The notes below the pieces were generated by a model that saw only the letters and a program-made list of their open reading frames with translations, had not been told where the DNA came from and searched no databases. Below, in pieces: positions 10,301-52,285 of a stretch of DNA of 64,000 nt. This DNA comes from Halichondria panicea. Lineage: Eukaryota; Porifera; Demospongiae; Suberitida; Halichondriidae. The position numbers were made by a program, and so were the translations under genes. The stretch is from contig NC_087383.1 in the NCBI RefSeq assembly GCF_963675165.1, positions 4,680,979-4,744,978 on the forward strand, given 5' to 3'. The number at the start of each line of letters is the position of its first letter. Position 1 is the stretch's first letter.

Positions 10301-13300
10301 TTATAATTCCATAGGTATTTCAAACCATCAGTCTCAGCGCTAGTAGGGGGCCATCTGAAGTATTTGCCCAATTATCGATCAACGGAGTACCAAGTTTCTT
10401 CATCAATCGTCCAACAACAACACAACTCGATATCCCCGAAGGATCGAGTATATTTTACAATGGAAATAGTTTGGCCATAACTGGTGCCGATCCAATTGTG
10501 CTGACAGCAAGTAGATTTCAGTATTTGTATCAAGATCCTGGGAGTTTCAGATTTCGAGATGTCACTGGACCAATCCCGGATGCCGGTGGACAACCTGGAC
10601 CTGGAACTTTGTACTATGATGGAGATACAGCACTTTTTACAAATTCAGATATATTTATTGGTACTTATGAAGGTCTTGCAGCTCAATTTCCTGTCCCACC
10701 TTCACAAGTGACAATCAGTACTCGACGAGTAAACAATGAACTAGCTCTCAACCTCCAATCCAGTCCTTCTGATCCTGTTACTGATGGAAATGTCATTGAG
10801 CTCACAGGATCAGATGCGTTCATCCTAGGATCAGGCGAATCATTGACGTATGTATCAAACAGTCTACGATATCGAAGAGGATCTGTAACTCAAGAGGTTT
10901 TTAATCCTATCACCAATTTTTATGTTCTTGAGGATATCACTGAGAATGGACAGCAAGGCAGAACCCTGAGGCGGTTTACTGGCGGCTCAAGCGAGGTTAT
11001 CACAGGGCCTGGACTTCTTAGGGTGGGAACTTCTCCTAATGACAGTTCGAGGGTCGCTTTTTTCAGTCCATCTACTAGTGTCAATCAAGAAATAAATAGT
11101 GGCATTATTGATGGACAGCTTTCGTTTGATGCAGTCCAAAACAGTGCTCAAATCTCGGATATTTTTACAAATCCAGGGACTCCTACACGCCTGATCGACT
11201 TGGGTGGTACATCAAGAACCTTTACATACCCCACAGCAAGCAGAGTTAGTTATGATGTTACCTCTGATGGTACCTCTGATAGAAGAGAGATTCGTGTTTT
11301 CGATAGGTTTAACCAACAGCTTGGCTCTTTTTTCGGTTCTGACTTGAGTTCCTTCCTCAACGACCAAGTCCAAACAACTAGTTCTGGAACTGCATCTTTT
11401 GATATTCCTGATGGAGGTGTGACACTTATTAGCAATTCTAATGATGCTAATGATACTAATGATGGGCAAGCATTTATCTACCCGAGTAGAAATACACTCC
11501 TGACTGGTCGCATCAATGAAGCCCGCAGTTCAATTACTATTACCCCGAATCCTTTCCCAACTTTCAGTATATCATCAAGTGGTGGCTCTTCCGTCTTGTC
11601 AATCAATGGTGATGAAACGGTCACAATAACAGACAGACCACCAATCATTGTTGGCAGTGGACAAACTCTAAACTATGATGGCACATCTGTTGAAGTGTTT
11701 AATAATGGAGCACCAGGTACACCTGTTTCTAGTACTACCACGAATTCCTTGACAACATATGAGACGCCTGGAAACTCTTTAAATACATATACCTCAAGTA
11801 ATACTCCACCCCAAGACTTTTCTGGACCTGGTGTCGTGTATTTTGACGATCAAAATCGAGCATTTTTCACTAATGAAGTACAAGTGACAAATCTTATCTC
11901 TGGTTTCCTTGACAGCCGCCCCCCCGTGAGAATTACAACCACTACTCGTACTGAAGGCGGCAGACGCTTTGTTGACATTGTGAATCCAGACGGTGTGCGT
12001 CTAGTCGAGGGGAGTACATCAACCATTACGAATGTGGGATCACGGCAAGGCCTTATCTACACAGGGAACACCGTCCGTTCTGTCAATGGGTTTTCCGTTC
12101 CTCCATCATATACAGTGCGATATGTTGTGTCTACCACACCTGGTGTTGACGATACAGTTGAAGTTCTAAATCCTGATGGAGACGTTGTTTTCAACACAAC
12201 TGCTTCCAGTAGCTTTAGGTATCGACAAGGAGGAGTGCTTCAACCTACACCTACAACTACTACCTCGTATTCTGGAGGTGGTGTTTTCTACCTCAATCCG
12301 GACACCGGTGCTGTGGTTTACAATGACGATACTACAACTTCAACAGGTTTGGTTACGGATCTGACAACTTCAGGAATTGTTTTCGATACAAACACCAGGA
12401 ATATCACCACGTTGAATTTCTTCGATGGTCGTACAATTACACGGTACGATGGAAGCTCTACAAGCTTCTTATCTGGTCCTGGTACAATTTTCACATCCGG
12501 TAATGAAGGATTTTACTCCACAGACAGAACGACCACCACCAGAGTAGTTACAGAAATAACAAACAATATACCGGTTGAAATACGTGTGAACCAAACAACA
12601 GGAGGAGTAACAATATTTAATCCTGGAACACAAACTACGATTTTCAATTTCACCACCGGTTCAGAGCGCACTACTGTAAGCACTGGAACAACGATAACGT
12701 ACACCAATGGTGTCCTAATACTACCCGGCCGCAACATTACAACTGATAGTTTCACCTACTTTAACGGTATTAGCACGCAAGTGTTTACTTCAGGAGATAC
12801 TGTGACTTTTTCTGGACCAGGCCAAGTGATAGTTAACGAACAAACCACTGAAACGATTTTCATTGATAACCAAAATACGAACAATCGAATAAACAATGTC
12901 GTTGACAATGTTCCTGTGGTTCCACCAGTTCTAGTACGACCCACAACCACTTCATTCATCTCTAAAGTCGCGGACGTCTTCCCACTCTTTGGACAGGTAT
13001 AATTATATAAATATGAGATTATAGAACGTCTCACATTTATGTTTTTATTATTCAGAGAGTCACAGTGTATCAATCAGCTAATGTGAATCTACGCTGTGTG
13101 ATTCTTCAAAGTGTTCCAACATCATCTTTCATGTTCTTCAGAGATGGAGTTGCATTGGACGGCTCAGAGATAGGTTCTACCATTACCATGGTGAGTAGCC
13201 CTGTGTAGCAGTATTTATTATCCTTTTTACAATCGTGTGGTAAATTATATATCACCCGCACCTAACCATCTGCCAAATTAATTCGCATTTGAGGGGTTAC

Positions 13301-16300
13301 GTTTGAGGGGTTACATTACGGAAACATTGATTTGGGCATGCATAGTGTGCCACCCTGTAAGGATTTATGTTTCGCATGCTCATCAAAAATTCAATACACG
13401 TATAATAATATTTACAGGTGTCAGAGAATGAACAAATCCTGACTGTCAACACCTTCAATGTCAGTGCTGCCGGTAGATATGAATGTCGCGTGAGTAATGG
13501 TCCTGGACGAGACAATCTGTTCGCAGATATTTTCATCAGACCTCCAGGTATATAAAGTTTCTATCTAACATGGCTACAAACAGACCAAGATAAATGTGTA
13601 TAGTCACTCCTTGAGTGTAGTGTAAGTGCTTGTTCCTTAAAGTTTAATGTACGGAGCAAGCCATAATTAAGTTTGCTGACCACAAAGCAACCTGCCCCAT
13701 TGAATTGAGTTGAACAAATGGATATTTTCTTTCAGTTGCACCGATGATTCAAAATAACTTCTTTCCCTCAATTCCGGAGCTTCCTGGACTGACAGTCACT
13801 GCTCGGGATATACAACCACAAAATCCAGTAATGATCATCATTCGGGACAGAACACCTGTACAAACTCTAGAGCCTAATCCACTGCTTCTCACGAACACCG
13901 TCAACATTGCTTGCAAAGATGATGTGGGTCTTCCAAGACCTACAATCGTATGGACTGCAACGGACTCTAATGGAGCTGAGGTTCCGATCAACATGTCTAA
14001 CATATTCGTGCCACGTGCGGGACGCAGTATCTACACAATCAACACTGACAACACTGACCCTGACAACACTCTGTCCATCACCTACGAGTGCACAGCAAGT
14101 AATGAGGCTGGTGAGGCTACTGGACTGGTGACCATTACACCAAGATGTGAGTAACGGACTAAGTGAAGTTGTGTATGACTGTGGACTTATGAGCATTTTA
14201 GGCTTGTCCATTTCTAAATACAAAATTTAGAGGCACTCTAGATTGCTGGCTGGCTTTTTAAATGGTCAGTTTCCTGAATTTTGTGTAAAGCAATGATTAT
14301 ATGCACTCATGCAGCATACGTTTGTGAGGGTAATGTCTTTGGACCCTGCTCTGTTACTTGCGGCTTTGGTAAGTTAGTCTTATTCCCTCATCTGTAACTA
14401 CTCCCACTCTGTACATTGATTGTTGATGGTGGCATATGGCTGGCCATAGCGTATCCTGTGCTGTAAGAAACTTCCATTGATATGTAATTGTACCTGGGCA
14501 ATGTTCTGCTCTATACAGGTATTCAGAGTTCTGCTCCAATTAACTGTCAAGTCAGGACCAATGAAAATATTGCGTCCATTGATGCTGCTGATTTACCTCA
14601 GGGACTATACCCAACGCAATTACAGATTTGTCAAAGCAGTGTCATGCCTTTCTGGTGAATAACTCAATCTGTTTGCATACAACGCATGCATGCATGCTTA
14701 AATATACACATTTTGGCTTTTTAGAAATCTGTATTGGTATCACATTGACATTTTGTTTACTTGCATGGCATGCATTTTGAGTTTGGTGTTAATGCTGCCA
14801 TGTGTGCTCTGTTTCTATAGCCCAGCGATAACCTATGAATTTAACACTACCGCCTTCGGAGCTTGTTCACGTACCTGTGGTGGTGGAGTGCAAGAGAGAA
14901 ATATAACCTGTTTTCGTTTGATTGGTGGAGTGAGAGATATGGCCGTGGATGATATAGATTGTATCGTCTTTGGACTGAAACGGCCTGCTGCTGCACAAGA
15001 GTGCTTTCCTCAGAAGTGTCCAAGATGGATGATTCTCAGCGCCTACTCTCCAGTAAGATATTTAACTCTAATATAACTGCGTAGCTATAATTATGCTTAC
15101 AAACCATGCTTGCCCGAATAAAAGCAAGACCCTATCAGTATCAAATCAAGCTTTGTTGGCTTCATGGATAATAATAGCAGTTCATGCAATTAAGTTGTGC
15201 TCTGCATGGAAATATTCTTTATTTTCCTCACTCGCACTGCATTACAGAATAATTGTTGTCACTTTGTAGTAAGTTACCCTACAATACAACCAGGTTAATT
15301 CAGCCCCAACACATATAATTATGTGTATAGGCCACCTCCTAATACGCACAGCGTCTTCCCAAGGATGGCGTTAAATAGACAAGTTTCACTGTATAAGTAC
15401 AACAGCTGCTTACCGACTACACACACCACACATACACACAGTGCTCTAGTACCTGTGCTGGTGGAGTTCGCTCAAGAAATGTGTCCTGTGTGCAATTCAT
15501 TGCCCAAATTAATGCAACGACGGGAGAGTTTGTCTGTGATGCTGACGGAAATCCGATTGGAGAGAGTATAGTACTGTCAGATGCAAGCTGCTTTGCTGGT
15601 AATATGCCGAGAAGAGTAGACGCCTGCAACACTCAGATACCCTGCCCTCGTAGATGGTCCCCTGGGACATTTGCACCTGTAAGTCTGTTATCTTATCTAC
15701 TTCGTTTTTTATTACACCATAATTATTCATGTAGTAACTATAGGGACTAAGTTCATGTAATACATTATTATGTATAGTTTGAAAAGCGTACTGATATTAT
15801 AATTATGTTCATCGATTTTCTTCCATCCTGCAGTGTGATGCTAACTTCTGCCAAGAAAGGAGTCTTACGTGTACCGGATTTGATCCCAGTGATCCAGAGG
15901 AACAATGGTTGCTTGACGTTTCCGAGTGCGCGAATCTCCCTCTACTACACACAGTCCGCAGCTGTGGAGGGGGGACTTGTGATGCTGGAATATGGATGAC
16001 AGAGAATTTGGTACGGTATTGATAGTGGTACGCAAACAAAATGTGGTATGCCTTTTTATTCTGCTAGTTGTGTAGTTTGTTCTGCAAGTTAATCAATGGG
16101 TTGTGTCTCAATAAACCACTTCATTCAAACTACAGTAGATTCTCGTTAATCCGGTCACCCTTGAACAGTGCAGCTTGGCCGGAATAGCGAGTTGGCTGTA
16201 TTTCAGGAAATAGCCACGGCTTAAAAACGACCTTACCTCGAATCTAATGACTAATTTTGCGGTTCTTGTCTCGGGGATCATTTTGCTCTCTATTTAATCT

Positions 16301-18627
16301 GCCAAACCACACCCAAATCGTTATATCCAGCCGCAAAAATTACCTAGTTTAGGGCAGCCAGCACTGGCGAGTATATTGAATAGCAAGTGGCTGTACTTCA
16401 GGGTGAGTTTTGTGCAATAAACATCTAGCTAGCAATCCGTGCCAAACCAAATGGCCGATATATCGAGGTGACCGTATTTCAGAGAGCCGGAATAGCGAGA
16501 GTCTGCTGTACGTCTGTTTTAAGTGCATGCATGTACATTATTATTATGCCTCGGTGTGCATGCGCAAGCGAGGTATGGTAGTGTGTGTGTCTATGTAGAC
16601 TCCTACAGCTGCTCAATTAATGTAAGTGCAAGTATTAAAGTTTCTATAGGCTCCTAGACATGCTTTCTTGGATTTGTAAAACAATGCTTTAATCGTTCTC
16701 GAGTTATGCTTATAATTATAGCTTTGCTTTATAATACTTGGAATGTTATTGCAGAAGAGTTCTATAGCAAAACTTGTCCATGGAGTGTTGCTACTCCAAA
16801 GTTCTACTGATGCAACAGCCATTAATTTTAGACTTTGTACTTATTGCCATTTGGGATCCTTTTAGCATCAATCATGGTCGATCATTTCCCATGCACTCTT
16901 CTTTGAGATTACAGATTTAATAGCCTGCATGCAACAAAATGTATGCAAATAGCTATAAAAAGACCTTCTGCGTATAATATTAAACTTTGAACTGTTAAAT
17001 TAGGCATGGTTAATAAGCATTTGCGGATAATATATCTGCGTTCATTCGCAGAATTTTTAGGCCGCAGAATTTTCTAGCTATACGGTATGGTTTGTATTAG
17101 CAATAGCAAGTAGCTTTTTAATTAGCTTTGACACACATCTATGATCCACTGAAGCATCAGCACCCGTGGTGCTTTCAATTATTATTAACCACCAATATAA
17201 GTTTATAGCTACAGTTATAATGAAAACGCCCTATAATGGCTACTAGCTTCTTAAGCAGCTCTTTTTGACTCTTGTATAGCTAACAAAAAGCTAGCGCTTT
17301 AGTGCAAGGCTAACTCATAACTTGAATATAGAAAGTTTGTGCAAACAAATGATGCTATAAAAAATTCTAAAGAGACTGCAACAGCCTTCAATGTGAGTCA
17401 AACTAGCCATAACTCGAGAAAGAAGCTTTAGTTAGCTAATCCATGAATCAAAATCCAAGAAAACGTGGTTAGAAGCCTATAGAAGCTGTTAGTTTTCGTC
17501 GCATTGTAGCAGTTGAGCAATTACAGCTGGAACAGACACACACACACACACAGTCAGCTTTACTGTATCCCTCGTGCGGCTATGCCTCGAGGCATAATTA
17601 TTATTCGACCTTTAGGTACGTAGTCAGTCAAACAAATCGTTGGGACTATTTCCATCTAATTTTCTCATAATCACATGCAGGGTACTTGCACAGTGACCTG
17701 TGGGATCGGCAATCAAGAAAGGAATGTTTTCTGTGTGTCGCGTGCTGATGGGTCCCGAATCAATGAGGGATTCTGTAACATTAATGAACGACCACCGGTT
17801 TTCGAAACATGTATACTTTTTAATTGCCCAGGTAATTATAGCCTACATAATAGTAATACTGTATTTCCTGTCATCAAATCCACATTTCCAGCTGTACACT
17901 CGCACATATACATGCAGGACGTTGTGATTTCGAGCCCCCTGACTGTCGAGTATTTAGACTACTGAGGCGCTGTAAGGACCTGGCCGTCGGCATGCCCTGC
18001 TGTAAAAGCTGCCCCCTGCAATTTGTTGACAATACTCCTACTCTGATTACTAGAGACAACCTTGTTCTGTCGTTGGATCAGAATAGGTACAATGTGGCTG
18101 CGGGAACAGATTTAAGGATCTGCTGTGTGGCCTCGTCCAGTACTCCAAATGCCTTCCTGCCTTTCCTCTTCAATTGCAACTTCTGTGAGTTGTGAATGAC
18201 AACGTATACATTCATGCACTCCTGATACACTGCATACACATGTTACAAACTTCAGCAGTATATTATGTACCCCATGCATATGCATGCGCATAGATTCATG
18301 CAGGCACCATAGTTTAGTTGGGTGTGACCTGGGCTTCTAGAGCTTATGTGCATAACATGCTCAACTAGTTGTTAACTCCAAACGACTATTTACCGTGGTA
18401 CATCTGCATGATTTTAAATGTGTATCTTGATAACTTGATCCTACATCCGTCCATTACGTGCAGTTGCCGAAGAGATTGAAAGGGAGGTTATGGTAGGAAA
18501 AGTATTAGACAACACTGCGTGTGTTACCTTCCCTACTTCTGGACTTGCGAGTGGCAGTGGATTCCTTTTGTCACTAGAGGATGATCAGGGGATGGTGCGC
18601 GACATTGCTAATGTCACCATTGTTTAG
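7118..18627 (+). CDS. Copy A: secreted Ig/TSP1/PLAC protein with large N-terminal repeat region (14 exons, 1618 aa)
   Basis: Predicted secreted matrix or surface-associated glycoprotein. CDS exons: 7118-7153, 7297-7341, 10315-12996, 13056-13190, 13418-13547, 13736-14146, 14315-14368, 14519-14654, 14821-15052, 15442-15678, 15834-16010, 17681-17831, 17918-18184, 18464-18627. All introns are GT-AG, phases agree, and the 4857-nt sum leaves one open frame ending in TAG. Domains: signal peptide ~1-24, novel repeats 28-~900, Ig ~905-1010, Ig ~1010-1146, TSP1-like modules ~1147-1475, PLAC ~1475-1507, Ig-like ~1508-1618. No membrane segment or protease is seen. TSP1 plus PLAC plus Ig resembles ADAMTS-like/papilin proteins; the N-terminal region does not. 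The start is the first ATG giving a hydrophobic leader. First of four tandem copies; by splice logic it looks intact. Confidence 0.85.
7587..8491. mobile_element. Pogo/Tigger-like MITE with TA target site, interrupted by a nested element
   Basis: Ends are CAATGGAACCTCC at 7587 and its imperfect complement GGAGGCTCCACTG at 8491, flanked by TA (7585-7586 and 8492-8493) as in pogo-type elements. Removing the nested insertion leaves about 420 bp. No transposase frame is visible. Confidence 0.6.
7739..8215. mobile_element. Nested MITE, 8-bp target-site duplication TTTAGTAT
   Basis: TIRs TAGCCTCGAGACCAGGCC and GGCCTGGTCTCAAGGCTA bound the element. TTTAGTAT occurs at 7731-7738 and again at 8216-8223. 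The 8-bp duplication fits a hAT-like or related non-autonomous element. Further internal inverted segments (about 7960-8130) give it strong fold-back potential. Confidence 0.7.
9225..9502. repeat. ~80-bp-arm inverted repeat with duplicated spacer
   Basis: The left arm (9225-9305; includes CTACTGGATTATTACGCAC and CAGGTTTGATCTTTTCTTAG) returns as its reverse complement at 9424-9502. The spacer holds a direct duplication of TCTGTCAAACTTAAACTTCT. Parts of the unit recur near 9750 and in intron 2 of B (about 24530-24700), C and D. Confidence 0.7.
10315..12996 (+). CDS. Copy A exon 3: 894-residue degenerate repeat region of unknown family
   Basis: A single phase 0-0 exon starts after TTCCATAG and ends at CAG before GTATAA. 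It encodes about six or seven degenerate units of 115-140 residues, each closing with a GPG-type motif and a short Phe/Tyr/Thr segment: GPGTLYYDGDTALFT, GPGLLRVG, GPGVVYFDDQNRAFFT, GGGVFYLNPDTGAVVY, GPGTIFTSGNEGFYST, GPGQVIVNEQTTETIF. Composition is rich in Thr, Ser, Gly, Asn and Val with almost no Cys, suggesting repeated beta-sandwich or adhesin-like modules. N-x-S/T sequons are common. I recognise no named domain. The last residues (FISKVADVFPLFGQ) begin the first Ig domain. Copy A has extra in-frame codons in TSDGTSD and NDANDTND relative to B and C. Confidence 0.85.
13056..14146 (+). CDS. Copy A exons 4-6: two Ig domains
   Basis: Exons 4 (13056-13190) and 5 (13418-13547) complete an I-set-like Ig domain: VNLRC carries the first cysteine, MFFRDG replaces the usual tryptophan segment, and SAAGRYECRVSN gives the YxC motif. 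Exon 6 (13736-14146) encodes a second Ig domain with VNIACKDD, RPTIVWTA (canonical Trp) and ITYECTASNEAG. The phase 1 introns around exon 6 fit a shuffled Ig module. Confidence 0.85.
14315..17831 (+). CDS. Copy A exons 7-12: thrombospondin type-1 array
   Basis: About five TSP1-like modules. Recognisable CSxTCGxG cores are FGPCSVTCGFG (exons 7-8), FGACSRTCGGGVQERNITC (exon 9), CSSTCAGGVRSRNVSC (exon 10) and GTCTVTCGIGNQERNVFC (exon 12). Exon 11 encodes a degenerate module (CDANFCQERSLTC). Module boundaries fall inside exons, with the N-terminal Trp of one module at the end of the previous exon (PRW, PRRW, GIW). This layout is typical of the ADAMTS/ADAMTSL/papilin superfamily. Confidence 0.85.
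15053..15441 (+). other. Intron 9 of copy A
   Basis: A 389-bp intron conserved in all copies, ending in a CA-rich tract before acceptor ACACACAG. I see nothing functional beyond splice sites. Confidence 0.6.
16133..16508. mobile_element. Pogo/Tigger-like MITE, intron 11 of copy A
   Basis: TA-flanked, with ends CAGTAGATTCTCGTTAATCC and CGAGAGTCTGCTG. It has the TCTCG...AATCCGG terminal pattern of pogo-type elements. No transposase. Equivalent insertions lie at 33501-33884, 46994-47376 and 59724-60099. Confidence 0.7.
16545..17180 (+). mobile_element. GCCTCGGTG-family element, intron 11 of copy A
   Basis: Begins ATGCCTCGGTGTGCATGCGC and ends GCACCCGTGGTGCTTTCA. The body contains GTTTCTATAGGCTCCTAG and TTCTCGAGTTATGC, also present in the B-D intron 2 copies. 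Equivalents: 33921-34552, 47414-48028 and 60138-60765. Confidence 0.65.
17219..17598 (-). mobile_element. Second short element family (AACGCCCTATAATGG ... CCTCGAGGCATAA)
   Basis: Starts ATGAAAACGCCCTATAATGG and ends at CCTCGTGCGGCTATGCCTCG followed by AGGCATAA. It shares AACTCGAGAAAGAAGC and TATAGAAGCTGTTAG with a partial copy in intron 2 of B (about 27020-27369). The CA tract near 17536 belongs to the element. Confidence 0.6.
17918..18627 (+). CDS. Copy A exons 13-14: PLAC motif and C-terminal Ig-like domain
   Basis: Exon 13 (17918-18184) opens with CDFEPPDCRVFRLLRRC and continues to CCKSC; the cysteine spacing C-x6-C-x8-C-x9-CC-x2-C fits the PLAC (protease and lacunin) domain. It then runs into an Ig-like region (AAGTDLRICCVASSS). 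Exon 14 (18464-18627) supplies the second half (DNTACVTFPTSG) and ends IANVTIV-stop. The stop TAG is followed at once by GTGAGT, a good donor, so a 3' UTR intron is likely. No C-terminal membrane anchor. Confidence 0.8.
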
Positions 18628-21600
18628 GTGAGTTTACACACAACTCTGTGTAAAAATCAAACTACTCTATTACTACTAGCTTACTATTAATATAAGTAGT
18701 CGTGTTGTGACATCAAGTTAATGCTCCACTAGTAGGTGTCAAAATCACTTGCAATGCTTCTATTGACTCATTATTGAGTTGGGTTGTTTTTTTAACACAC
18801 TGTTTTATTCCCATGCACACGATATCTTCTACAGTGATTTCTCAGCATAGGAAGATTTGACTTCCACTTTCAGTGTATGTATGCTTATAATTTTTGTCAA
18901 GTTCAATGCCAGTTTTTTTGTATATAGCTCTTGCTTTGGGCGTCATATACTCCTTTTAGACTTTGCGTATAACCGTACATATTTTTGTGTAAAGAATGTG
19001 ATTAACTTAATTCTGTGTTGCACAAGCTGTAGGTAATAGAATGAATATCGCATTTTACCTCAATTTCACATAATGCTATCTTGCAGACCATTCAGACAAT
19101 GGTACATACACTATTATAGTGCATGACAGTATCAATATTAATACAGACTTGTAGACATTGCACTGACTCTCTACTATAATTATATGCAAGATGAAAGCAC
19201 CACGGGTGCATGCTGATGCCTTGGATGTGTCAAAGCTACCTTGTTGTTAACCCGAGGCGCGTGGGCGGCCACGGGTTATAGTAGTCGTTTGGTTTGTTTG
19301 TTTGTTTGTGACAGGTGAATCTACTCACCTGGATGCCACAGCACTGCGTTTACAGCATGGATAGCCTTCATACAACAAGTTATTAATTTTAATAGTGGCA
19401 GAATTTCATGTTAAACCTTCGTTGTCAAATAAAAACGAGCAAAAGCTAAGAAGCTTGTGACTGGGTCTGCTTACCTGGATGCTCTAGCACTGCGCTTACA
19501 GCATGGGTAGCCTCCACACAACAAGTCAGTACTTCTAATAGTGGCAGCTTTCGGTGTTAAAGCTTCGTTGTCTAATAAAAGCGAGCAAAATGTAGCTTGA
19601 ACAGAACTTGCACATGCGTTACTTATAACTGAAGTGATTCTGTACCAGGTCCAGAAACAATGGAACAGGGTCACTAAAGTAGAAAGCTGTATATACCAGG
19701 AACAATATTGGAACAGGGTCACTAAAGCAGAAAGCTTGCTTTAGCTGACTGGGATCCATGCAGGACCTGGAGCCATACTTCTCTGAGACTCCATGCTTCT
19801 TTGCTGTGATCCTAATCCACAGTGCATATATTTATAGTACTACTACCTGTTCTCAAATGTTTCAGCATGCCTCCAGTCTGGTTTAGTTTTATTGCTCCTG
19901 AGTTGCTGCATGTGCAAGTCATGCATGATGATGATAACAACATCACTATATGCACTGCATTATATCAGTCTTCTGGTTTCTTTATAATCATGTCACCAGC
20001 CGAGGGTTTGCACTTTAGTGCTCTAGTTACTATTATAAACGGGTACTAATTTTAACGAATTTGTAATTAACGCAAGCTAGCCCTTTTTCATCTGACTCCA
20101 AACTTTCCATTCAACCTTAAAACTCATACTTAGCCGAGATATTATTATGCTACAAATCTGCCAAAATTACTACCCTAAAAACAGAGAAAAATCTGAAAAC
20201 GCTAAAATTACTACCCGTCTATAATAATAACATTAAGGTACATAAACATAAAGCTACTACAGTATAGCTGTTGCTAATACCAAGACTAGAATTATAGGAA
20301 GAACAAGAGTACAGTAGGCGTTCTGTCCAACCTACATCACAACCACAGGCTGTTGTATACCTATAACTTAAGGTAACATATTTTTTCGGGTATTAATTTC
20401 TGCAAATGAGAGTAAAATCGCAAAAATGTGTACTCGCAGATAATTGGAAAATGGTAATTAAAACCACTCGCGAGTAATTAGAAACGCTATTAATTTCACA
20501 ACTTGAGTAGAATTTATATAGCAGAATTTACTGCTTGGAGATGAGCGGTATTTGCGGTAGAGGGCTGGGACTTGAATACAAACAAAATAAGCTATCGCAG
20601 ACAAATCTAGAGGAGTATGCAACTCCCACGCACATTCCATTCTACATCTAGGATTGAATACATCACTAACATAGCCTCCTTTGCAGGCCCTCCTTTTTCT
20701 GTTCTTTGTCACAAGAATTGGAGGGAAAGAAGGAAGCGACAAACAAAAAGGAGAGCTTGCCTTGCTAAGTCGCGTGATCCCCACTGACGTACTGTAGTCA
20801 ATTTTAATGAGCGCGTGGGCAAGAGTAAACCGCAATAACTCTCCTCCCACAAAGTACTTGGAGTGCATTTACCAGAAACATTATTTTTGAACAGCAGAGT
20901 CAGCCTTCGTCCTTTTAGTCAGTAGCTGTAATAATATATACCGTTCATCTAGGATTTTAAGTTTGGGAGGGAAGCTTGAAAAAGAGCCACGCGCACTCAA
21001 ACCTATATACCTTGTTGAAAACCAGAAAAAGACTTCCGACAGAAGCTTGAGAGCCTGGGCCTGTTCTGTATGGCTACATTTTAGTACTTGAGTCTGAGAG
21101 CATACACAGAGCTAAATTTACGGATTAACCGCAAAATGTGTCTGCTTTTTCCCAGTCCCTTAACCACGCGTAGATACAATCAATACTAGGCCGTCAAGAA
21201 AAATCGGCATGGGAACGAGGCTACAGTTGATTAGGCCTACTTACAATAAAAGGTCCACACATCGATACTAGAGACAGAAGTCCGCAGTTAACATCCATCT
21301 GAGGAATAGAATGAAATGTCCACATAGTGAATGATAATTTAATATGTAATTGAACCTATAGGCCCACTTACGGCATTAAAAGGTAAGTCTCATTATAGGA
21401 ATTAGTGATTAGAGATAGAAGTCCACGAGTTAAACACCATCCATCAGCATCATAGATAAAAGAGCTACATAGATCTATGGTTCCAGCCTCCTATATATTC
21501 TTCCATCTGCATGAGGAACAGAAAGTGAGGCTTAATGTAGTCTCACAAATCAGCCGCCCTTCAATGCATAGATCTATTGACACTAGAAGAGAGATATACT

Positions 21601-22239: not shown

Positions 22240-25200
22240 ATGCAATCCTCTACACTGTACGTGCTTGTTGCTGCGGTAAGTTGTGTCTAGATACAAACTT
22301 ATATTGATAATATCACATCTTGATCTAGATTTAGGTCTAGGTACGTCTACTTGAATACCTCCTGCATGTCTCGAATTAGCTTATTAGGCACTAATATAGA
22401 TCTAGTCGTGTAAGGAATTGTAACAGTCAGCACAGTGCTTCTCTTACAGCTGGTGATAGTGGGACAGCATGCTGCTCAGGGTCAAGATGAAGTGGTGAGT
22501 GCTTTGATATAATGTACTGGTAGCCATAATTAATTATGCCTGGTGCGGCGACGAGGGATACGGATTAAAAGCTGACTGTGTAAGTATGGGGTGCTGTTTG
22601 TCTCAAAACTAATAAAGAGTCGATGTTTTACCTACCAGATCAATGTTTAGAGACAAATCTATGCTTAACAGATGGATGTTTAGCAACCAGATATTTGCAT
22701 ACCAGATCGATGTTTAGCAACCAGATCGATGTTTAGAGACCAGATCGATGTTTAGCAACCAGATCGATGTTTACCTACCAGATCGATGTTTAGAGACCAG
22801 ATCGATGTTTAGCAACCAGATTGATGTTTAGAGACCAGATCGATGTTTAGCAACCAGATCGATGTTTAGCAAAGCTACCAGATCGCACAAAGTGCAGCTA
22901 TGGTTTCTTGTGATACTTAATTATGCCTCGGTGCGCATGCGCAAGCGAGGTATACGGTAGTGTATTTGTGTGTGTGTGTGTCTCTGTGTGTGTGTGTGTC
23001 TGTGTGTGTGTAGACTGCGTAAGAGTTTCTATAGGCTTCTAGTCATGTTCACTTGGATTTTAATTCGTGGATTTGCAAAATAATGCTTTGTTCTCGAGTT
23101 ATGCCTAGTTTTGCTTACTTGGAATGCCATTGCAGCCTTTTCAGAAGAGCACGTAGTCAAACTTGTTTACCAAGTGATGCTACTCTACTTAGTAGTTAGC
23201 TCTGCACTAGAACGCTAGGTATTGGTAATGTATAAAAAGCTATTAAAGTCTATTTGCGTTGAGTTCGACCCCGGAAGTTATGTGGTCAATTATGGCTTCA
23301 TTTATGCTTTATGTGGTGGACAAGTATGCTTGGGACTTACATAGAAAATGCTAACTTTTAGCTGGTTGGAGCTTATCAGCTCTACAGCATATAGATAGAA
23401 GTGCTTTTTAACAAGGAATCCAATGGTATATGAAACTTTGAATTTCAGTAAAGTATGACAAAGTTATGACAACTTTATGAAGGTCAAACTCAACACAAAT
23501 AGACTTTTATTATGTTATGTAGCTTTGGCACCTCCATCGAGGCATCAGCACCCACAGTGCTTTCATTTTTGAAGTTATAATTTATTGTTTCGGTTTGAGT
23601 GTTTATGCAGCTTTTGTTCTGACAAGGAAGGTTTGCCCTGGATTATTTTCCAGAACAAATTGTTGCTTAGCCCTTGGCCATTGTCTGTGAGACACACTTT
23701 TCTGCTTTGCAACTCTAATGTAGGAGATGTTGGCCCGAATATTGGTTGGTGATTCTTATACGATTAGGTTTATTAAGAGTATAATTACTGAATCGAAGCT
23801 ATGCACAATTGATCTACAGTAGACTCTCGTTAATCCGGTCACCCTTGGCCGGAATAGCAAGGTGGCTGCAGCTCAGGAAATAGCCGCGGCTTAAAACGAC
23901 CTTACCTCGAATCTAATGATTACTTTTGCGGTTCTTGTCTCGAGGATAATGTAGGATAATGAATCATTTTGTTCTCTATTTAAGTGTAATTCAATTTTAT
24001 TTGCTAAACCACACCCAAAACGTCATATCCGGCCGTAATACACGTATAAAATTACATTGAAAACCCTGTTTGGGACAGCCAGTACTGGCCGGTAACCGGA
24101 ATAGCGAGTGGCCGTACTTCAGGGTGAGTTTTGTGCAGTAAACATTATAGCTAGCATTCCGTGCCAAGCCAAATGGCCGGTATATCGAGGTGGCCGTACT
24201 TCAGGGAGCCGGAATAGCGAGAGTCTACTGTATTGTAGCGTACTGGATTATTACTTTACGTTCTTATGCTAAGCGCCAAACTGGAATTACTTTGTTGCGC
24301 CGCTGAAAAATCATTTAATTTTTGGAGCGGCAGTATGTAAAATTAACCCGCGGTGCCACCGGAGTCTGTTTGTCTGTCTGTCTGTCAGTCTGTCATTTTG
24401 TGTATTCTGAGTCTGCTCACCTCGTTGAGAAAGCACTGTGTTTGTATCATGGATAGCCTCAACACAACAAGGTAGATGTTTAAATTTGGCAAATTTTGAT
24501 GAAGCTTCGTTGTCGAATAAAAGCGAGAAAAAAAGCTAAAACCTAAGAAAAGATCAAACCTGCACGTTAGCCTAGATGTACATGCAGCTTTGACTCGAGA
24601 ATGTGCAGGTTTGATCTTTTCTTAGCCTCTTCTCGCTTCATCAAAATCTGTCAAACTTAAACTTCTACCTTGTTGTGTTGAGGCTATCCAGTGGCAGCTA
24701 GCTGCCACGAACAGTCAACCTAGCTAGCCTAGGCTAACCTGAACACTCCTTTGGCAGTTGATACATCAAAACAACAGGTACGTACAATCATTGAATCAAA
24801 TTACAATAGCTACAAAAACTGATAAATAGCTAGCTGGTGTCATTAAGCCTTCTAAAGTTAACTTCAAAAGGGGGGGTCAAGGGACCCCATGGACTCTCCT
24901 CTGGATCCTCCACTGGATAGCCTCAACACAACAAGGTAGAAGTTTAAGTTTGACAGATTTTGATGAAGCGAGAAGATGCTAAGAAAAGATCAAACCTACA
25001 CGTTAGCTTAGATGTACACACGCCAGGGGCGTAGCCAGGATTTTGGGGAAGGGGGTGCTTTCATAAATAAAAGAGGCCACGAAGCGCCGAAATGTTGTTG
25101 ACCAGAAACCACACCTCTTATTAGTGGCGTCATCGGCACAGTTGGGCGTGGCCTAGCAGGAGTGAGAAGCCTACATACATACATACTTAAAAGCCTCCTA

Positions 25201-28200
25201 GATCCTTTGCAGGCTCCTTTGTCCATCTCAATTGATAATCTCAGGATAATATTATTGCATAAAACTTTTACAAAGAAACAAGGGGCTGCAGGAAGTATTG
25301 GCAAGTCTCTCGAGGCCCTTGGATGTCTGATGATGAGTGCAGTCCTCTATGCACTATACAAGGCAGCTAGCTAGCTCAGTCATAGATAAATGATGAACGT
25401 TAATTATTATATTGAGCTCCACCCATGCATGCAGGAAATGAATAGCTGAACCCTATGTGACCTTCCATGCATTATCAATTATCTTTCGTAACGTGAGTCC
25501 AGCACAATAGTCCAAGCTGCTACTAACTAAAAACTACTCTCTTAGGTGAATAGCTAGAATAGCTAGTTCAGTATGCAGCAAACAATCTAAATCTGGAGTG
25601 CTGAGCTCAACTGGATCTTCAAGTATTATTAAAGCTTTAATTTACATGTAGAGTCAGGCAGGGGGGGTGCTCAAGCACCCAAAGCACCTCCCCTGCCTAC
25701 GTAGCCTCCTTCACAGGCCTTTGAAAGAAGGCCTGCTATCGACTGCTTGCGCATGCGCCAAATTATTGGATTTTTTTCCCGTAAATATTTCTATAATACT
25801 ATAATATTGGATTTTTTACCCGTAAATATTCCTATAATACTGGATACATCAGAGAAAATATTCTAAAAGTCATACACAGAGCTATATAGCTAGCTAGCTA
25901 GAAACAGAGCTGTGTAGGTTTGTTGTACTGCTATTTTCTTCTGATAGAATCAGTAGCAGTAGTATAGTAGACTTTCACCAAAGTTAGTGTTAAATGGGCG
26001 TGGCCTGTCCATATAGGCTCTTATCAGCCGTCACTCCTTTCAGACGATCGTTATCCACACTGTTGCAGGCTGTGAGTCTTTTGTTAACATAGCAGGCTAA
26101 GGGTAGCTATCACAGAATGCTATCTGATGGGCTAGAAACCTTCAATCGAACTTTCTATCTACTTCCTTCAATCCACTTCCTTTCGTTGTGATGTCATAGT
26201 TTTACTGAGCATAAACGATGTTATCCAAAGCCCCCAAATACCGGGGGGATATTAGCGCATGCGCAAGCAGTCGATACCAGGCCCACTTCCCTAGCGGGAA
26301 GTGCGGCCTGGGATCGAGGCTACTGCCTACGCCCCTGCACGCAGCTTTGATTCGAGGTTGTATAGACTTCACTAAACCCTAAATAACGCTGCTGATTTAC
26401 TGCTATTGGATCTATTGAGCAAGGAATTGTTGTGTTTAATGGCTATATAGATCTACCCGTATAGAGAGGCTGTAGTATGCTTTGTTAAGATTATTTGGAA
26501 TAAACACTATTTGACAACTAGTGTTCAAGCTGGCGCTGTGCTAATGCCTCTCGCCATGTTTTGCTTTCGCTCAAAAGTATTAGAGTGTTATCTATAATGA
26601 ATTTTATATTAAAGTTAGCTTATCTATATAAAGTCACTGAGAAGAAAATACTTATTTACATGTATCTATTGTTGTTATTTATTGTATTATGTGGCTTACC
26701 AGGACCTCAAGAAAGAAGAAAATTGATTCTTCCAGGATCTGTAGTTCAGTGTATATAATATCTAAGAAGAAAAGACCTGTGTAGTCTACATGCATATAAT
26801 TGTTATCTATATTGTTATATGGTAGTGTTTTGTGGCTTACCAGGCCCTCAAGACAAAGATGATTCTGCCAGGAGGATCTGGATCTGGATCTTGGATATTA
26901 TTTTCTCATGCACACGGGGGAATGAGCAAGCATGCGCATTACATCCACAGGAATAATTAAAGGGTGTGTCCAAAGATATCAATTTCACAAATGGCTACTG
27001 CTAGCTAGCTGTTTTAACAGATATTTTCACGTAGCTAACAAAAAGCTAGCGCTTTAGTGCAAGGCTAACTCATATGTTGAATAGAAAGTTTGTGCGGACA
27101 GATGATGCTATGAAAGATTCTGAAGAGACTGCAACAGCCTTCAATGTGAGTCAAACTAGCCATAACTCGAGAAAGAAGCTTTAGTTTGCTAATCCACGAA
27201 TCAAAATCCAAGAGAAGGTGGCTAGAAGCCTATAGAAGCTGTTAGTTTTCGTCGCATTGCAACCGTTGAGCAGTTATAGCTGGAATACACACACAGACAG
27301 ACAGACAGACAGACAGACACACACAGTCAGCTTTACCGTATCCCTCGTGCGGCTACGCCTCGAGGCATAATGATGTACTAGAGAGACATTTGATACAGTG
27401 TCTCTCTACTAGAGGTTCCACTACATGTAGCTGTACTGTAAGTTGTATACGAAATAGATTGTTGCAATGAGTCAGTCATGCGTAACTGTAATTTTATCCG
27501 TTCTCCTCCTGCATGTCCTACGAAGGAACACATGGTGGCCAATTCGAAGAGGTCATAATTCATTGTATGCGGATGCTTATAAGTCTACTTTAGAAATTTT
27601 AGCTCGTGCAGTGGTAAAGTTGATGAAATTACGTACAGCCATCTGGTTTTCTTTTTGTGCTACTGAATGACTTTTATAATTCCATAGGTATTTCAAACCA
27701 TCAGTCTCAGCGCTAGTAGGGGGCCATCTGACGTATTTGCCCAATTATCGATCAACGGAGTACCAAGTTTCTTCATCAATCGTCCAACAACAACACAACT
27801 CGATATCCCCGAAGGATCGAGTATATTTTACAATGGAAATAGTTTGGCCATAACTGGTGCCGATCCAATTGTGCTGACAGCAAGTAGATTTCAGTATTTG
27901 TATCAAGATCCTGGGAGTTTCAGATTTCGAGATGTCACTGGACCAATCCCGGGTGCCGGTGGACAACCTGGACCTGGAACTTTGTACTATGATGGAGATA
28001 CAGCACTTTTTACAAATTCAGATATATTTATTGGTACTTATGAAGGTCTTGCAGCTCAATTTCCTGTCCCACCTTCACAAGTGACAATCAGTACTCCACG
28101 AGTAAACAATGAACTAGCCCTCAACCTCCAATCCAGTCCTTCTGATCCTGTTACTGATGGAAATGTCATTGAGCTCACAGGATCAGATGCGTTCATCCTA

Positions 28201-31200
28201 GGATCAGGTGAATCATTGACGTATGTATCAAACAGTCTACGATATCGAAGAGGATCTGTAACTCAAGAGGTTTTTAATCCTATCACCAATTTTTATGTTC
28301 TTGAGGATATCACTGAGAATGGACAGCAAGGCAGAACCCTGAGGCGGTTTACTGGCGGCTCAAGCGAGGTTATCACAGGGCCTGGACTTCTTAAGGTGGG
28401 AACTTCTCCTAATGACGGTTCGAGGGTCGCTTTTTTCAGTCCATCTACTAGTGTCAATCAAGAAATAGATAGTGGCATTATTGATGGACAGCTTTCGTTT
28501 GATGCAGTCCAAAACAGTGCTCAAATCTCGGATATTTTTACAAATCCAGGGACTCCTGCACGTCTGATCGACTTGGGTGGTACATCAAGAACCTTTAAAT
28601 ACCCTACAGCAAGCAGAGTTACCTTTGATGATACCTCTGGTAGAAGAGAGATTCGTGTTTTCGATAGGTTTAACCAACAGCTTGGCTCTTTTTTCGATTC
28701 TGACTTGAGTTCCTTCCTCAACCACCAAGTCCAAACAACTAGTTCTGGAACTGCATCTTTTGATATTCCTGATGGAGGTGTGACACTTATTAGCAATTCT
28801 AATGATGGGCAAGCATTTATCTACCCGTGTAGAAAAACACTCCTGACTGGTCGCATCAATGAAGCCCGCAGTTCAATTACTATTACCCCGAATCCTTTCC
28901 CAACTTTTAGTATATCATCAAGTGGTGGCTCTTCCGTCTTGTCAATCAATGGTGATGAAACGGTCACAATAACAGACAGACAACCAATCATTGTTGGCAG
29001 TGGACAAACTCTAAACTATAATGATGCATCTGTTACAGTGTTTAATAATGGAGCACCAGATACACCTGTTTCTAGTACCCCAATTACCACGAATTCCTTG
29101 ACAACATATGAGACGCCTGGAAACTATTTAAATACATATACCTCTAGTAATCCTCCACCCCAAGATTTTGTTGGACCTGGTGTCGTGTATTTTGACAATC
29201 AAAATCGAGCATTTTTCACTAATGAAGTACAAGTGACAAATCTTATCTCTGGTTTCCTTGACAGCCGCCCCCCCGTGAGAATTACAACCACTACTCGTAC
29301 TGAAGGCGGCAGACGCTTTGTTGACATTGTGAATCCAGACGGTGTGCGTCTAGTTGAGGGGAGCACATCAACCATTACCAATGTGGGATCAACCTTTACC
29401 AATGTGGGATCAACCATTACCAATGGGGGATCACAGCAAGGCCTTATCTACACAGGGAACACCGTCCGTTCTGTCAATGGGTTTTCCGTTCCTTCATCAT
29501 TTACTATTCGATATGTTGTATCTACCACACCTGGTGTTGACGATACAGTTGAAGTTATAAATCCTGATGGAGATGTTTATTTCACCACAACTGCTTCCAG
29601 TAGCTTTAGGTATCGACAAGGAGGAGTGCTTCAACCTACACCTACAACTACTACCTCGTATTCTGGAGGTGGTGTTCTCTACCTCAATCCGAACACCGGT
29701 GCTGTGGTTTACAATGACGATACTACAACTTCAACAGGTTTGGTTACGGATCTGATAACTTCAGGAATTGTTTTCGATACAAACACCAGGAATATCACCA
29801 CGTTGAATTTCTTCGATGGTCGTACAATTACACGGTACGATGGAAGCTCTACAAGCTTCTTATCTGGTCCTAGTACAATTTTCACATCCGGTAATGAAGG
29901 ATTTTACTCCACAGACAGCACGACCACCACCAGAGTAGTTACAGAAATAACAAACAATATACCGGTTGAAGTAGGTGTGGACCAAACAACAGGAGAAGTA
30001 ACAGTATTTTATCCTGGAACACAAACTACGATTTTCAATTTCACCACCGGTTCAGAGCGCACTACTGTAAGCACTGGAACAACGATAACATACACCAATG
30101 GTATCCTAATACTACCCGGCCGCAACATTACAACTGATAGCTTCACCTACTTCAACGGTATTAGCACGCAAGTATTTACCTCGGGAGATACTGTGACTTT
30201 TTCTGGACCAGGCCAAGTGATAGTTAACGAACAAACCACTGAAACAATTTTCATTGATAACCAGAATACGATCAATCGAATAAATAATGCCCTTGACAAT
30301 GTTCCTGTGGTTCCACCAGTTCTAGTTCGACCCACAACCACTTCATTCATCTCTAAAGTCGCGGACGTCTTCCCACTCTTTGGACAGGTATAATTATATA
30401 AATATGAGATTATAGAACGTCTCACATTTATGTTTTTATTATTCAGAGAGTCACAGTGTATCAATCAGCTAATGTGAATCTACGCTGTGTGATTCTTCAA
30501 AGTGTTCCAACATCATCTTTCATGTTCTTCAGAGATGGAGTTGCATTGGACGGCTCAGAGATAGGTTCTACCATTACCATGGTGAGTAGCCCTGTGTAAC
30601 TGTATTTATTATCCTTTTTACAATCGTGTGGTAAATTATATATTGCCCCGCACCTAACCATCTGCCAAATTAATTCGCATTTGAGGGGTTACATTACGGA
30701 AACATTGATTTGGGCGTGCATAGTGTGCCACCCTGTAAGGATTTATGTTTTGCATGCTCATCAAAAATTCAATACACGTATAATAATATTTACAGGTGTC
30801 AGAGAATGAACAAATTCTAACTGTCAACACCTTCAATGTCAGTGCTGCCGGTAGATATGAATGTCGCGTGAGTAATGGTCCTGGACAAGACAGTCTGTTC
30901 GCAGATATTTTCATCAGACCTCCAGGTATATAAAGTTTCTATCTAACAATATGGCTACAAATAGACCAAGATAAATGTGTCTAGTCACTCCTTGAGTATA
31001 GTGTAAGTGCTTGTTCCTTAAAGTTTAATGTATGTAGCAAGCAATAATTAAGTTTGCTGACCACAAAGCAACCTGCCCCATTGATGAACAAATGGTATTT
31101 TCTTTCAGTTGCACCGGTGATTCAAAATAACTTCTTTCCCTCAATTCCGGAGCTTCCTGGACTTACAGTCACTGCTCAGGATATAACACCACAAAATCCA

Positions 31201-34200
31201 GTAATGATCATCATTCGGGACAGAACACCTGGACAAACTCTAGAGCCTAATCCACTGCTTCTCACGAACACCGTCAACATTGCTTGCAAAGATGATGTGG
31301 GTCTTCCAAGACCTACAATCATGTGGACTGCAACGGACTCTAATGGAGTTGACATTCCGATCAATATGTCTAACATATTCGTGCCACGTGCGGGACGCAG
31401 TATCTACACAGTCAACACTGACCCTGACAACACTCTGTCCATCACCTACGAGTGCACAGCAAGTAATGAGGCTGGTGAGGCTACTGGACTGGTGACCATT
31501 ACACCAAGATGTGAGTAACGGACTAAGTGAATTTGTGTATGACTGTGGACTTATGAGCATTTTAGGCTTCTCCATTTCTAAATACAAAATTTAGAGGCAC
31601 TCTAGATTGCTGGCTGGCTTTTTAAATGGTCAGTTTCCTGAATTTCGTGTAAAGCAATGATTATATGCACTCATGCAGCATACGTTTGTGAGGGTAATGT
31701 CTTTGGACCCTGCTCTGTTACTTGCGGCTTTGGTAAGTTACTCTTATTCCCTCATCTGTAACTACTCCCACTCTGTACATTTTGTTGATGGTGGCGTATG
31801 CCTGGCCATAGCGTATCCTGTGCTGTAAGAAACTTCCATTGATTTGTAATTGTACCTGGGCAATGTTCTGCTCTATACAGGTATTCAGAGTTCTGCTCCA
31901 ATTAACTGTCAAGTCAGGACCAATGAAAATATTGCGTCCATTGATGCTGCTGATTTGCCTCAGGGACTATACCCAACGCAATTACAGATTTGTCAAAGCA
32001 GTGTCATGCCTTTCTGGTGAATAACTCAATCTGTTTGCATACAACGCATGCATGCATGCTTAAATATACACATTTTGGCTTTTTAGAAATCTGTATTGGT
32101 ATCACATTGACATTTTGTTTACTTGCATGGCATGCATTTTGAGTTTGGTGTTAATGGTGCCATGTGTGCTCTGTTTCTATAGCCCAGCGATAACCTATGA
32201 ATTTAACACTACCGCCTTCGGAGCTTGTTCACGTACCTGTGGTGGTGGAGTGCAAGAGAGAAATATAACCTGTTTTCGTTTGATTGGTGGAGTGAGAGAT
32301 ATGGCCGTAGATGATATAGATTGTATCGTCTTTGGACTGAAACGGCCTGCTGCTGCACAAGAGTGCTTTCCTCAGAAGTGTCCAAGATGGATGATTCTCA
32401 GCGCCTACTCTCCAGTAGGATATTTAACTCTAATATAACTGCGTAGCTATAATTATGCTTACAAACCATGCTTGCCCGAATAAAAGCAAGACCCTATCAG
32501 TATCTAAATCAAGCTTTGTTGGCTTCATGGATAATAATAGCAGTTCATGCAATTAAGTTGTGCTCTGCATGGAAATATTCTTTATTTTCCTCACTCGCAC
32601 TGCATTACAGAATAATTGTTGTCACTTTGTAGCAAGTTACCCTACAATACAACCAGGTTAATTCAGCCCCAACACATATAATTATGTGTATAGGCCACCT
32701 CCTAATACAGCGTCTTCCCAAGGATGGCGTTAAATAGACAAGTTTCACTGTATAATTTAGTAGTACAACAGCTGCTTACCGACTACACACACACCACACA
32801 TACACACAGTGCTCTAGTACCTGCGCTGGTGGAGTTCGCTCAAGAAATGTGTCCTGTGTGCAATTCATTGCCCAAATTAATGGAACGACGGGAGAGTTTG
32901 TCTGTGATGCTGACGGAAATCCGATTGGAGAGAGTATAGTACTGTCAGATGCAAGCTGCTTTGCTGGTAATATGCCGAGAAGAGTAGACGCCTGCAACAC
33001 TCAGATACCCTGCCCTCGTAGATGGTCCCCTGGGACATTTGCACCTGTAAGTCTGTTATCTTATCTACTTCGTTTTTTGTTACACCATAATTATTCATGT
33101 AGTAACTATAGGGACTAAGTTCATGTAATACATTATTATGTATAGTTTGAAAAGCGTACTGATATTATAATTATGTTGATCGATTTTCTTCCATCCTGCA
33201 GTGTGATGCTAACTTCTGCCAAGAAAGGAGTCTTACGTGTACTGGATTTGATCCCAGTGATCCAGAGGAACAATGGTTGCTTGACGTTTCCGAGTGCGCG
33301 GATCTCCCTCTACTACACACAGTCCGCAGCTGTGGAGGGGGGACTTGTGATGCTGGAATATGGATGACAGAGAATTTGGTACGGTATTGATAGTGGTACG
33401 CAAACAAAATGTGGTATGCCTTTTTATTCTGCTAGTTGTGTAGTTTGTTCTGCAAGTTAATTAATGGGTTGTGTCTCAATAAATCACTTCATGCAAACTA
33501 CAGTAGATTCTCGTTAATCCGGTCACCCTTGGATAGTGCAGCTTGGCCGGAATAGCGAGTTGGCTGTATTTCAGGAAATAGCCACGGCTTAAAAACGACC
33601 TTACCTCGAATCTAATGACTAATTTTGCGGTTCTTGTCTCGGGGATAATGAATCATTTTGCTCTCTATTTAATCTGCCAAACCACACCCAAATCGTTATA
33701 TCCGGCCGCAAAAATTACCTAGTTTGGGGGCAGCCAGCACTGGCGAGTATATTGAATAGCAAGTGGCCGTACTTCAGGGTGAGTTTTGTGCAATAAACAT
33801 CTAGCTAGCAATCCGTGCCAAACCAAATGGCCGGTATATCGAGGTGACTGTATTTCAGAGAGCCGGAACAGCGAGAGTTTGCTGTACGTCTGTTTTAAGT
33901 GCATGCATGTACATTATTATTATGCCTCGGTGTGCATGCGCAAGCGAGGTATGGTAGTGTGTGTGTCTATGTAGACTCCTACAGCTGCTCAATTAATGTA
34001 AGTGCAAGTATTAAAGTTTCTATAGGCTCCTAGACATGCTTTCTTGGATTTGTAAAACAATGCTTTAATCGTTCTCGAGTTATGCTTATAATTATAGCTT
34101 TGCTTTATAATACTTGGAATGTTATTGCAGAAGAGTTCTATAGCAAAACTTGTCCATGGAGTGTTGCTACTCCAAAGTTCTACTGATGCAACAGCCATTA

Positions 34201-38638: not shown

Positions 38639-39390
38639 ATGCAATCCTCTACACTATACGCGCTTGTTGCTGCGGTAAGTTGTGTCTAGATACAAACTTA
38701 TATTGATAATATCACATCTTGATCTAGATTTAGGTCTAGGTACGTCTACTTGAGCACCTCCTGCATGTCTCGAATCAGCTTATTAGGCACATCCTTTTAA
38801 TATAGATCTAGTCGTTGTAAGGAATTATAACAGTCAGCACAGTGCTTCTCTTACAGCTGGTGATAGTGGGACAGCATGCTGCTCAGGGTCAAGATGAAGT
38901 GGTGAGTGCTTTGATATAATGTACTGGTAGCCATAATTAATTATGCCTGGTGCGGCGACGAGGGATACGGATTAAAAGCTGACTGTGTAAGTATGGGGTG
39001 CCGTTTGTCTCAAAACTAATAAAGAGTCGATGTTTACCAACGAGGTCGATGTTTTACCTACCAGATCAATGTTTAGAGACAAATCTGCTTAACAGATGGA
39101 TGTTTAGCAACCAGATATTTGCATACCAGATCGATGTTTAGTAACCAGATCGATGTTTAGAGACCAGATCGATGTTTAGCGTCGATGTTTACCTTCCAGA
39201 TCGATGTTTAGAGACCAGATCGATGTTTAGCAACCAGATTGATGTTTAGAGACCAGATCGATGTTTAGCAACCAGATCGATGTTTAGCAAAGCTACCAGA
39301 TCGCACAAAGTGCAGATATGGTTTCTTGTGACACTTAATTATGCCTCGGTGCGCATGCGCAAGCGAGGTATACGGTAGTGTATTTGTGTG

Positions 39391-39437
<47 letters not shown>

Positions 39438-39446
39438 TGTGTGTGT

Positions 39447-39531
<85 letters not shown>

Positions 39532-51832: not shown

Positions 51833-52035
51833 CGATGCTTTACCTACCAGATCAATGTTTAGAGACAAATCTGCTTAACAGATGGATGTTTAGCAACCAG
51901 ATATTTGCATACCAGATCGATGTTTAGTAACCAGATCGATGTTTAGAGACCAGATCGATGTTTAGCAACCAGATTGATGTTTAGAGACCAGATCGATGTT
52001 TAGCAACCAGATCGATGTTTAGCAAAGCTACCAGA
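51833..52035. repeat. ~20-bp minisatellite, intron 2 of copy D
   Basis: The shortest of the three arrays; same CCAGATCGATGTTTAG units with GAGA and GCAA variants. Confidence 0.8.
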
Positions 52036-52074: not shown

Positions 52075-52138
52075 TATGCCTCGGTGCGCATGCGCAAGCG
52101 AGGTATACGGTAGTGTATTTGTGTGTCTGTGCGTGTGT

Positions 52139-52219
<81 letters not shown>

Positions 52220-52224
52220 TGTGT

Positions 52225-52285
<61 letters not shown>

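Follow-up and report, generated by a model that had tools for sequence, protein, structure and literature searches.

Families of ADAMTS-like proteins and papilins are characterised by an ADAMTS spacer with a Cys-rich module and by a C-terminal PLAC domain, and the sponge aggregation factor combines Calx-beta domains with domains of its own family. Among tandem recognition genes of invertebrates, SpTransformer of the sea urchin is built with mosaic segments. The present analysis concerns a tandem array of the sponge Halichondria panicea, found in the window (the whole stretch of 64,000 nucleotides that was analysed, positions 4,680,979 to 4,744,978 of NC_087383.1). The predicted protein resembles ADAMTS-like proteins and papilins in its ADAMTS-type TSP1 repeats (TSP1_ADAMTS, 8.6e-32 over four stretches), its Ig domains, its probable secretion and its Cys-rich C-terminus. 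It differs from them in its N-terminus, where a repeat region about 890 residues long is found; no such region is known from those families.

No Pfam model of the ADAMTS spacer, the Cys-rich module or the Kunitz domain matched the spliced downstream parts at E values up to 10, a range in which few matches above about 0.1 survive the HMMER filters. The Cys-rich tail of copy 2 (143 residues) matched none of the Pfam families, PLAC included, and contains a CC-x-S-C stretch that is PLAC-like by eye only. Calx-beta was absent from the Pfam results for both the repeat exon and the downstream exons. Likewise, the Pfam models compared for Poriferan-TSP (Mol Biol Evol 2019, PMC6526912) had no match in this protein. 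Since the defining domains were not found by Pfam (Calx-beta in the case of the aggregation factor), the protein was not classed as an ADAMTS-like protein or papilin, a thrombospondin or an aggregation factor.

Tandem copies and predicted protein

A stop-to-stop reading frame of 895 amino acids (10315-13002) surrounds the repeat exon of copy 1. The exon limits given in the preliminary description, 10315 and 12996, were confirmed by the GT donor directly after 12996 and by this open frame. Four tandem copies could be aligned in the window, and because they align and their homology is long, reaching up to about 9.5 kb, the array is regarded as the product of recent tandem duplication. Both the fourfold occurrence of the exon and its Ig/TSP1 protein context had gone unmentioned in the preliminary description. 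The main features, all on the forward strand, are the following.

10315-12996, forward strand: repeat exon of copy 1, 894 open codons, phase 0 at both ends, TAG before 10315 and GT after 12996
13056-13547, forward strand: first Ig domain of copy 1, in two exons (13056-13190 and 13418-13547) with splice signals, Ig_3 at 8e-11
13736-14146, forward strand: second Ig domain exon of copy 1, with splice signals; under the Pfam cut-off alone, supported in the spliced part
14315-17831, forward strand: TSP1 and Cys-rich exons of copy 1 (14315-14368, 14519-14654, 14821-15052, 15442-15678, 15834-16010, 17681-17831), with splice signals
27467-36253, forward strand: predicted gene model of copy 2, the most complete of the models, 13 exons with GT-AG introns, 1643 amino acids, stop at the end only
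27688-30387, forward strand: repeat exon of copy 2, 900 residues in the spliced model
41213-43867, forward strand: repeat exon of copy 3, open, 885 codons, bearing the unit-4 patch
53975-56612, forward strand: repeat exon of copy 4, interrupted by a deletion of 8 bases and by a stop codon in frame, bearing the unit-3 patch

The exons of the copy 2 model were picked by hand from reading frame and splice signals. They encode, in this order, a signal-like start, the repeat region, two Ig domains, ADAMTS-type TSP1 repeats and the Cys-rich tail. Ig and TSP1 domains together in an intron-rich gene are characteristic of animals. Once the downstream exons of copy 1 were spliced, the Ig_3 (8e-11) and TSP1_ADAMTS matches both passed the Pfam cut-off. 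The start of the copy 2 model is hydrophobic and signal-like by eye, and no membrane-spanning stretch was seen by eye near the end of the protein, which points to secretion; a role in the matrix or in cell adhesion is probable.

Copy 2 was the only copy with an open and hydrophobic signal exon, and the 74-base intron upstream of the repeat exon was identical in all four. The signal exon of copies 1 and 4 has one additional base, followed by two stops. In that of copy 3, the additional base is joined by an insertion of two bases; reading from the same ATG meets no stop there, but the hydrophobic stretch is replaced. At the first stop site, CG in copy 2 corresponds to TG in copies 1, 3 and 4, and at the second, CG in copies 2 and 3 corresponds to TG in copies 1 and 4, a pattern suggestive of CpG decay from the state of copy 2. 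In addition to the damage to its repeat exon, copy 4 has a further 8-base deletion in a TSP1 exon. The copies with an altered signal exon (1, 3 and 4) may be pseudogenes or may use another start; for copies 1 and 3, this would mean another start or genes that are dying.

Downstream of copies 1 and 4, respectively, segments 20076-21253 and 62822-64000 are 99.4% identical, and as the second of them runs off the end of the window, the array may extend beyond 64000. Between copies, a 19-base minisatellite of related unit was present at 22669-22872, 39027-39290 and 51879-52025, and long TG tracts were present at 39385-39530 and 52120-52284. One intron of the copy 2 model contains a 249-base tandem duplication (34447-34949, 96% matches).

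Composition, internal symmetry and relatives of the repeat region

The richness in Thr, Ser, Asn and Gly and the near-absence of Cys that had been reported for this region were both recovered. The 895 amino acids of copy 1 include 134 Thr, 98 Ser, 87 Gly, 78 Val and 66 Asn, as well as 57 Phe and 27 Tyr among aromatic residues, with no Cys, His, Met or Trp and a single Lys. Codon-position shuffles gave expectations of 28.0 Lys and 22.2 His, against 1 and 0 observed. A Lys scarcity confined to the repeat region was rejected, as the downstream exons of copy 1 are also poor in these residues (3 Lys and 1 His in 554 amino acids); the whole copy 2 model of 1643 amino acids has 10 Lys and 4 His. The claim of many N-glycosylation sequons proved wrong: copy 1 has 7, against 16.0 +/- 3.4 in shuffles, and the repeat exons of copies 2 and 3 have 3 and 5.

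Seven units were delimited by eye in copy 1, the limits of unit 4 being set after the window plot of divergence had been viewed and before the fine patch limits were drawn.

10315-10704, forward strand: unit 1, aligned in register with unit 4 (113 columns, 31% identity)
10705-11133, forward strand: unit 2, above all HHalign nulls against units 1, 4, 5 and 6
11134-11529, forward strand: unit 3, GPG absent, no HHalign pair above nulls, site of the copy 4 patch
11530-11925, forward strand: unit 4, residues 406-537, site of the copy 3 patch
11926-12363, forward strand: unit 5, GGG in place of GPG, above nulls with unit 2 over just 17 columns
12364-12561, forward strand: unit 6, half length, above all nulls with units 2 and 7
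12562-12924, forward strand: unit 7, above all nulls with unit 6

At least six units closing with GPG-type motifs had been proposed, and the excess of such motifs over chance was upheld. There were 5 GPG motifs where 0.52 would be expected, and 6 matches to a broader motif, G[PG]G-x-[VILF]-[YRFIV], where 0.11 would be; the broader motif was defined post hoc on a sequence already inspected. Neither count was reached in any of 5000 shuffles. The tally of units was less uniform than proposed, with five GPG, one GGG, one unit devoid of the motif and one of half length. The proposed spacing of 115-140 residues did not hold, since motifs at residues 95, 231, 504, 654, 721 and 834 of the copy 1 repeat region are separated by 136, 273, 150, 67 and 113 residues; regular opening spacings of 136, 136 and 137 are obtained only if the degenerate unit 3 is placed by eye (GG near residue 367).

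Self-comparison, a check that had been named beforehand, revealed internal symmetry of a degenerate kind: the best off-diagonal Smith-Waterman match scored 103, the maximum among 200 shuffles being 84. When the seven units were compared pairwise in HHalign with 126 column-shuffled nulls, 6 of 21 pairs (U1/U2, U1/U4, U2/U4, U2/U5, U2/U6 and U6/U7) exceeded all nulls, U1/U2 and U2/U4 narrowly so (scores of 18.2 and 17.3, the highest null being 17.2). The other 15, including every pair that involves unit 3, were within the nulls. Units 1 and 4 formed the best in-register pair and the sole one of the six to align along the greater part of its length. HHalign probabilities of unit pairs peaked at 25%. 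A profile HMM built from these two units scored the remaining ones no higher than shuffled sequence, and a hydrophobic-moment test, a poor test in itself, detected no strand periodicity (z from -0.6 to 0.2 at 160-180 degrees) and lent no support to the beta-rich fold that had been suggested. By these comparisons of sequence, the repeat symmetry of the exon is real, yet degenerate and weak. In copy 2, a 21-base tandem repeat was observed within unit 5 (29367-29433), where 14 residues are absent from copies 1, 3 and 4.

The assertion that the region belongs to no named domain family held within the Pfam, NCBIfam, PHROGs and PDB-sequence searches. The best Pfam E value was 0.24, under the cut-off, for the whole repeat exon, and 0.14 for 12 unit sequences submitted one by one, as had been advised. 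Against PDB sequences, phmmer gave a best E value of 0.91 with the repeat exon; a 12-row unit profile reached 57 sequences within a limit of E 10 (best 0.02). These were mainly short stretches of a single family, the spike glycoproteins, and were taken as chance. For the repeat exon, PHROGs and NCBIfam had no match up to E 1, nor had plasmids, and tblastn against phages returned five records with E values of 0.3-0.5, regarded as chance. Two scans of a genome contig collection yielded 254 and 110 peptide-pattern matches and a viral contig collection 154, none of them upheld by tblastn; each scan relied on a small number of peptide patterns, would detect only close relatives and covered a prokaryotic or viral collection, hence it is silent on other animals. 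Rfam at the gathering threshold found nothing in the 64-kb window. By title or abstract start, no protein of this description appeared in the literature among the matches listed, which were mostly from outside subscription journals. The repeat region seems to hold about seven degenerate units, of which six measure 115-150 residues and the other is half as long. None of the libraries searched contains this kind of unit, and it is quite possible that a known fold whose sequence similarity has been lost lies behind it.

Divergent patches in copies 3 and 4

Introns differed by 1.1-2.2% in all six copy pairs, and windows of 150 columns along the aligned copies mostly differed by 0-7%. In the repeat exon, copy 4 differed from the rest by 20.5-23.6% in two adjacent windows. 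The core of this patch, 11276-11393 in copy 1 coordinates (118 bases, unit 3), contained 44 private changes, about 37%. For copy 3, two windows showed differences of 16.7-22.9% from the rest, and the window preceding them 8.7-10.7%. Its dense stretch lies at about 11549-11935 (copy 1 coordinates), close to unit 4, and over the patch it is 81.3-83.1% identical to the other three copies (17-19% different). Private changes were tested on 6884 gap-free columns between 9990 and 17000, in runs of 250 columns with 1000 shuffles. A single run held 43 of the 109 private changes of copy 3 (shuffled maximum 15) and 53 of the 96 of copy 4 (shuffled maximum 13); those of copy 1 were unclustered (4 of 32, shuffled maximum 8). 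In copy 2, 12 of 68 private changes fell in one run near 12699-12949 (about 30090-30340 in copy 2), equal to the shuffled maximum of 12, and a mild third patch is possible there. Three intron windows at 17231 also showed high divergence between copies 2 and 3 (51, 39 and 17%), the other copies being gapped in the first two; this looks like an alignment of unlike insertions.

Both patches have sharp limits and keep the reading frame open, and each is confined to about one repeat unit. They introduce Cys, Met, Lys and Trp, residues nearly missing from copy 1. Their best matches were the corresponding units of the other copies, unit 4 for the copy 3 patch and unit 3 for the copy 4 patch. An origin elsewhere in the exon was not supported, with scores of 20 and 24 against 25 and 27 for the best of 50 shuffles, and no donor was present within the 64-kb window.

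Synonymous change was also raised in the patches: dS was 0.315-0.389 in the unit-3 patch for pairs involving copy 4, and 0.1145-0.138 in the unit-4 patch for pairs involving copy 3 (three pairs each). This argues for imported sequence rather than selection alone. The dN/dS comparisons comprised 18 tests with patch limits set post hoc, and all p values are uncorrected. Outside the patches, ratios among copies 1-3 were 0.54, 0.61 and 0.43 (Fisher p 0.035, 0.098 and 0.0011), which suggests purifying selection, and those of pairs with copy 4 were 0.99, 0.68 and 0.60 (p 1, 0.23 and 0.11). In the unit-4 patch, copy 3 gave 1.79, 1.95 and 1.69 against copies 1, 2 and 4 (p 0.096, 0.044 and 0.096), and in the unit-3 patch, copy 4 gave 0.79, 0.91 and 0.77 against copies 1, 2 and 3 (p 0.47-0.85). 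Over the six pairs, the whole repeat exon ranged from 0.64 to 1.02 and the Ig and TSP1 exons from 0.35 to 0.85.

Origin of the patches and comparison with known systems

We favour, with moderate confidence, a secreted matrix or adhesion protein whose N-terminal repeat module is unclassified and whose gene belongs to a young array in which units have been converted piecemeal from divergent paralogs outside the window. Gene conversion is the simplest reading of the patches, and its donors are as putative as the process. Against this account stand the absence of any donor from the window, the altered signal exons of copies 1, 3 and 4 and the weakness of the repeat similarity. An array of at least four copies would have arisen by recent tandem duplication, a single repeat unit would sometimes have been overwritten by conversion from such a paralog, and the remainder would have stayed at about 1-2% divergence. 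Judging from domain types, the exported protein may be held in the matrix by its Ig and TSP1 domains acting as an anchor, and the repeat region may form an extended stalk facing a ligand.

It is somewhat unlikely that the array is simply decaying, with copy 2 alone at work and the patches reflecting relaxed constraint in pseudogenes, possibly with conversion from dead copies. The sole intact signal exon of copy 2, the 8-base deletions in the repeat and TSP1 exons of copy 4, the dN/dS of 0.77-0.91 in its unit-3 patch over three pairs and the appearance of Cys, Met, Lys and Trp in the patches would all fit such a course. However, plain decay does not yield 37% divergence within 118 bases when introns diverge by 1-2%, and the repeat exons of copies 1 and 3 are still open over 894 and 885 codons. 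The high similarity of copies over up to about 9.5 kb, together with long dinucleotide tracts, favours misassembly, so that another family member or an allele could have been merged into copies 3 and 4; we hold such assembly or haplotype artefacts to be unlikely, because the frame is open in both patches, each lies within about one repeat unit and a divergent family member would still be required as their source.

The region could also be an unfolded, low-complexity stalk with some recurring motifs and no folded repeat, as its Thr/Ser-rich composition, the failure of the two-unit HMM to find other units and the lack of beta periodicity in the hydrophobic-moment test might indicate. This is decidedly improbable in view of the GPG excess, the Smith-Waterman and HHalign scores above nulls, the 57 Phe and 27 Tyr, and the fact that dN/dS among copies 1-3 is less than 1 away from the patches. 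A cassette-diversified recognition surface, for which a pool of divergent paralogs would donate units and individuals would differ for self/non-self or microbe recognition, is very doubtful; the elevated rate of amino-acid replacement in the unit-4 patch (dN/dS 1.69-1.95 in pairs with copy 3, uncorrected p 0.044-0.096) is compatible with it. If piecemeal conversion in a secreted protein is the right account, the locus encodes an Ig/TSP1 protein with a large undescribed repeat module of which single units are swapped between paralogs, and offers a concrete place to test the diversification of a surface or matrix molecule in animals. At a minimum, it provides a candidate new repeat family for domain libraries.

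Compared with SpTransformer, this locus shares near-identical tandem genes and a repeat-bearing exon that varies in blocks. It differs by its domains and by being an array known from one sequence only. The product would work like a secreted Ig/TSP1 matrix protein.
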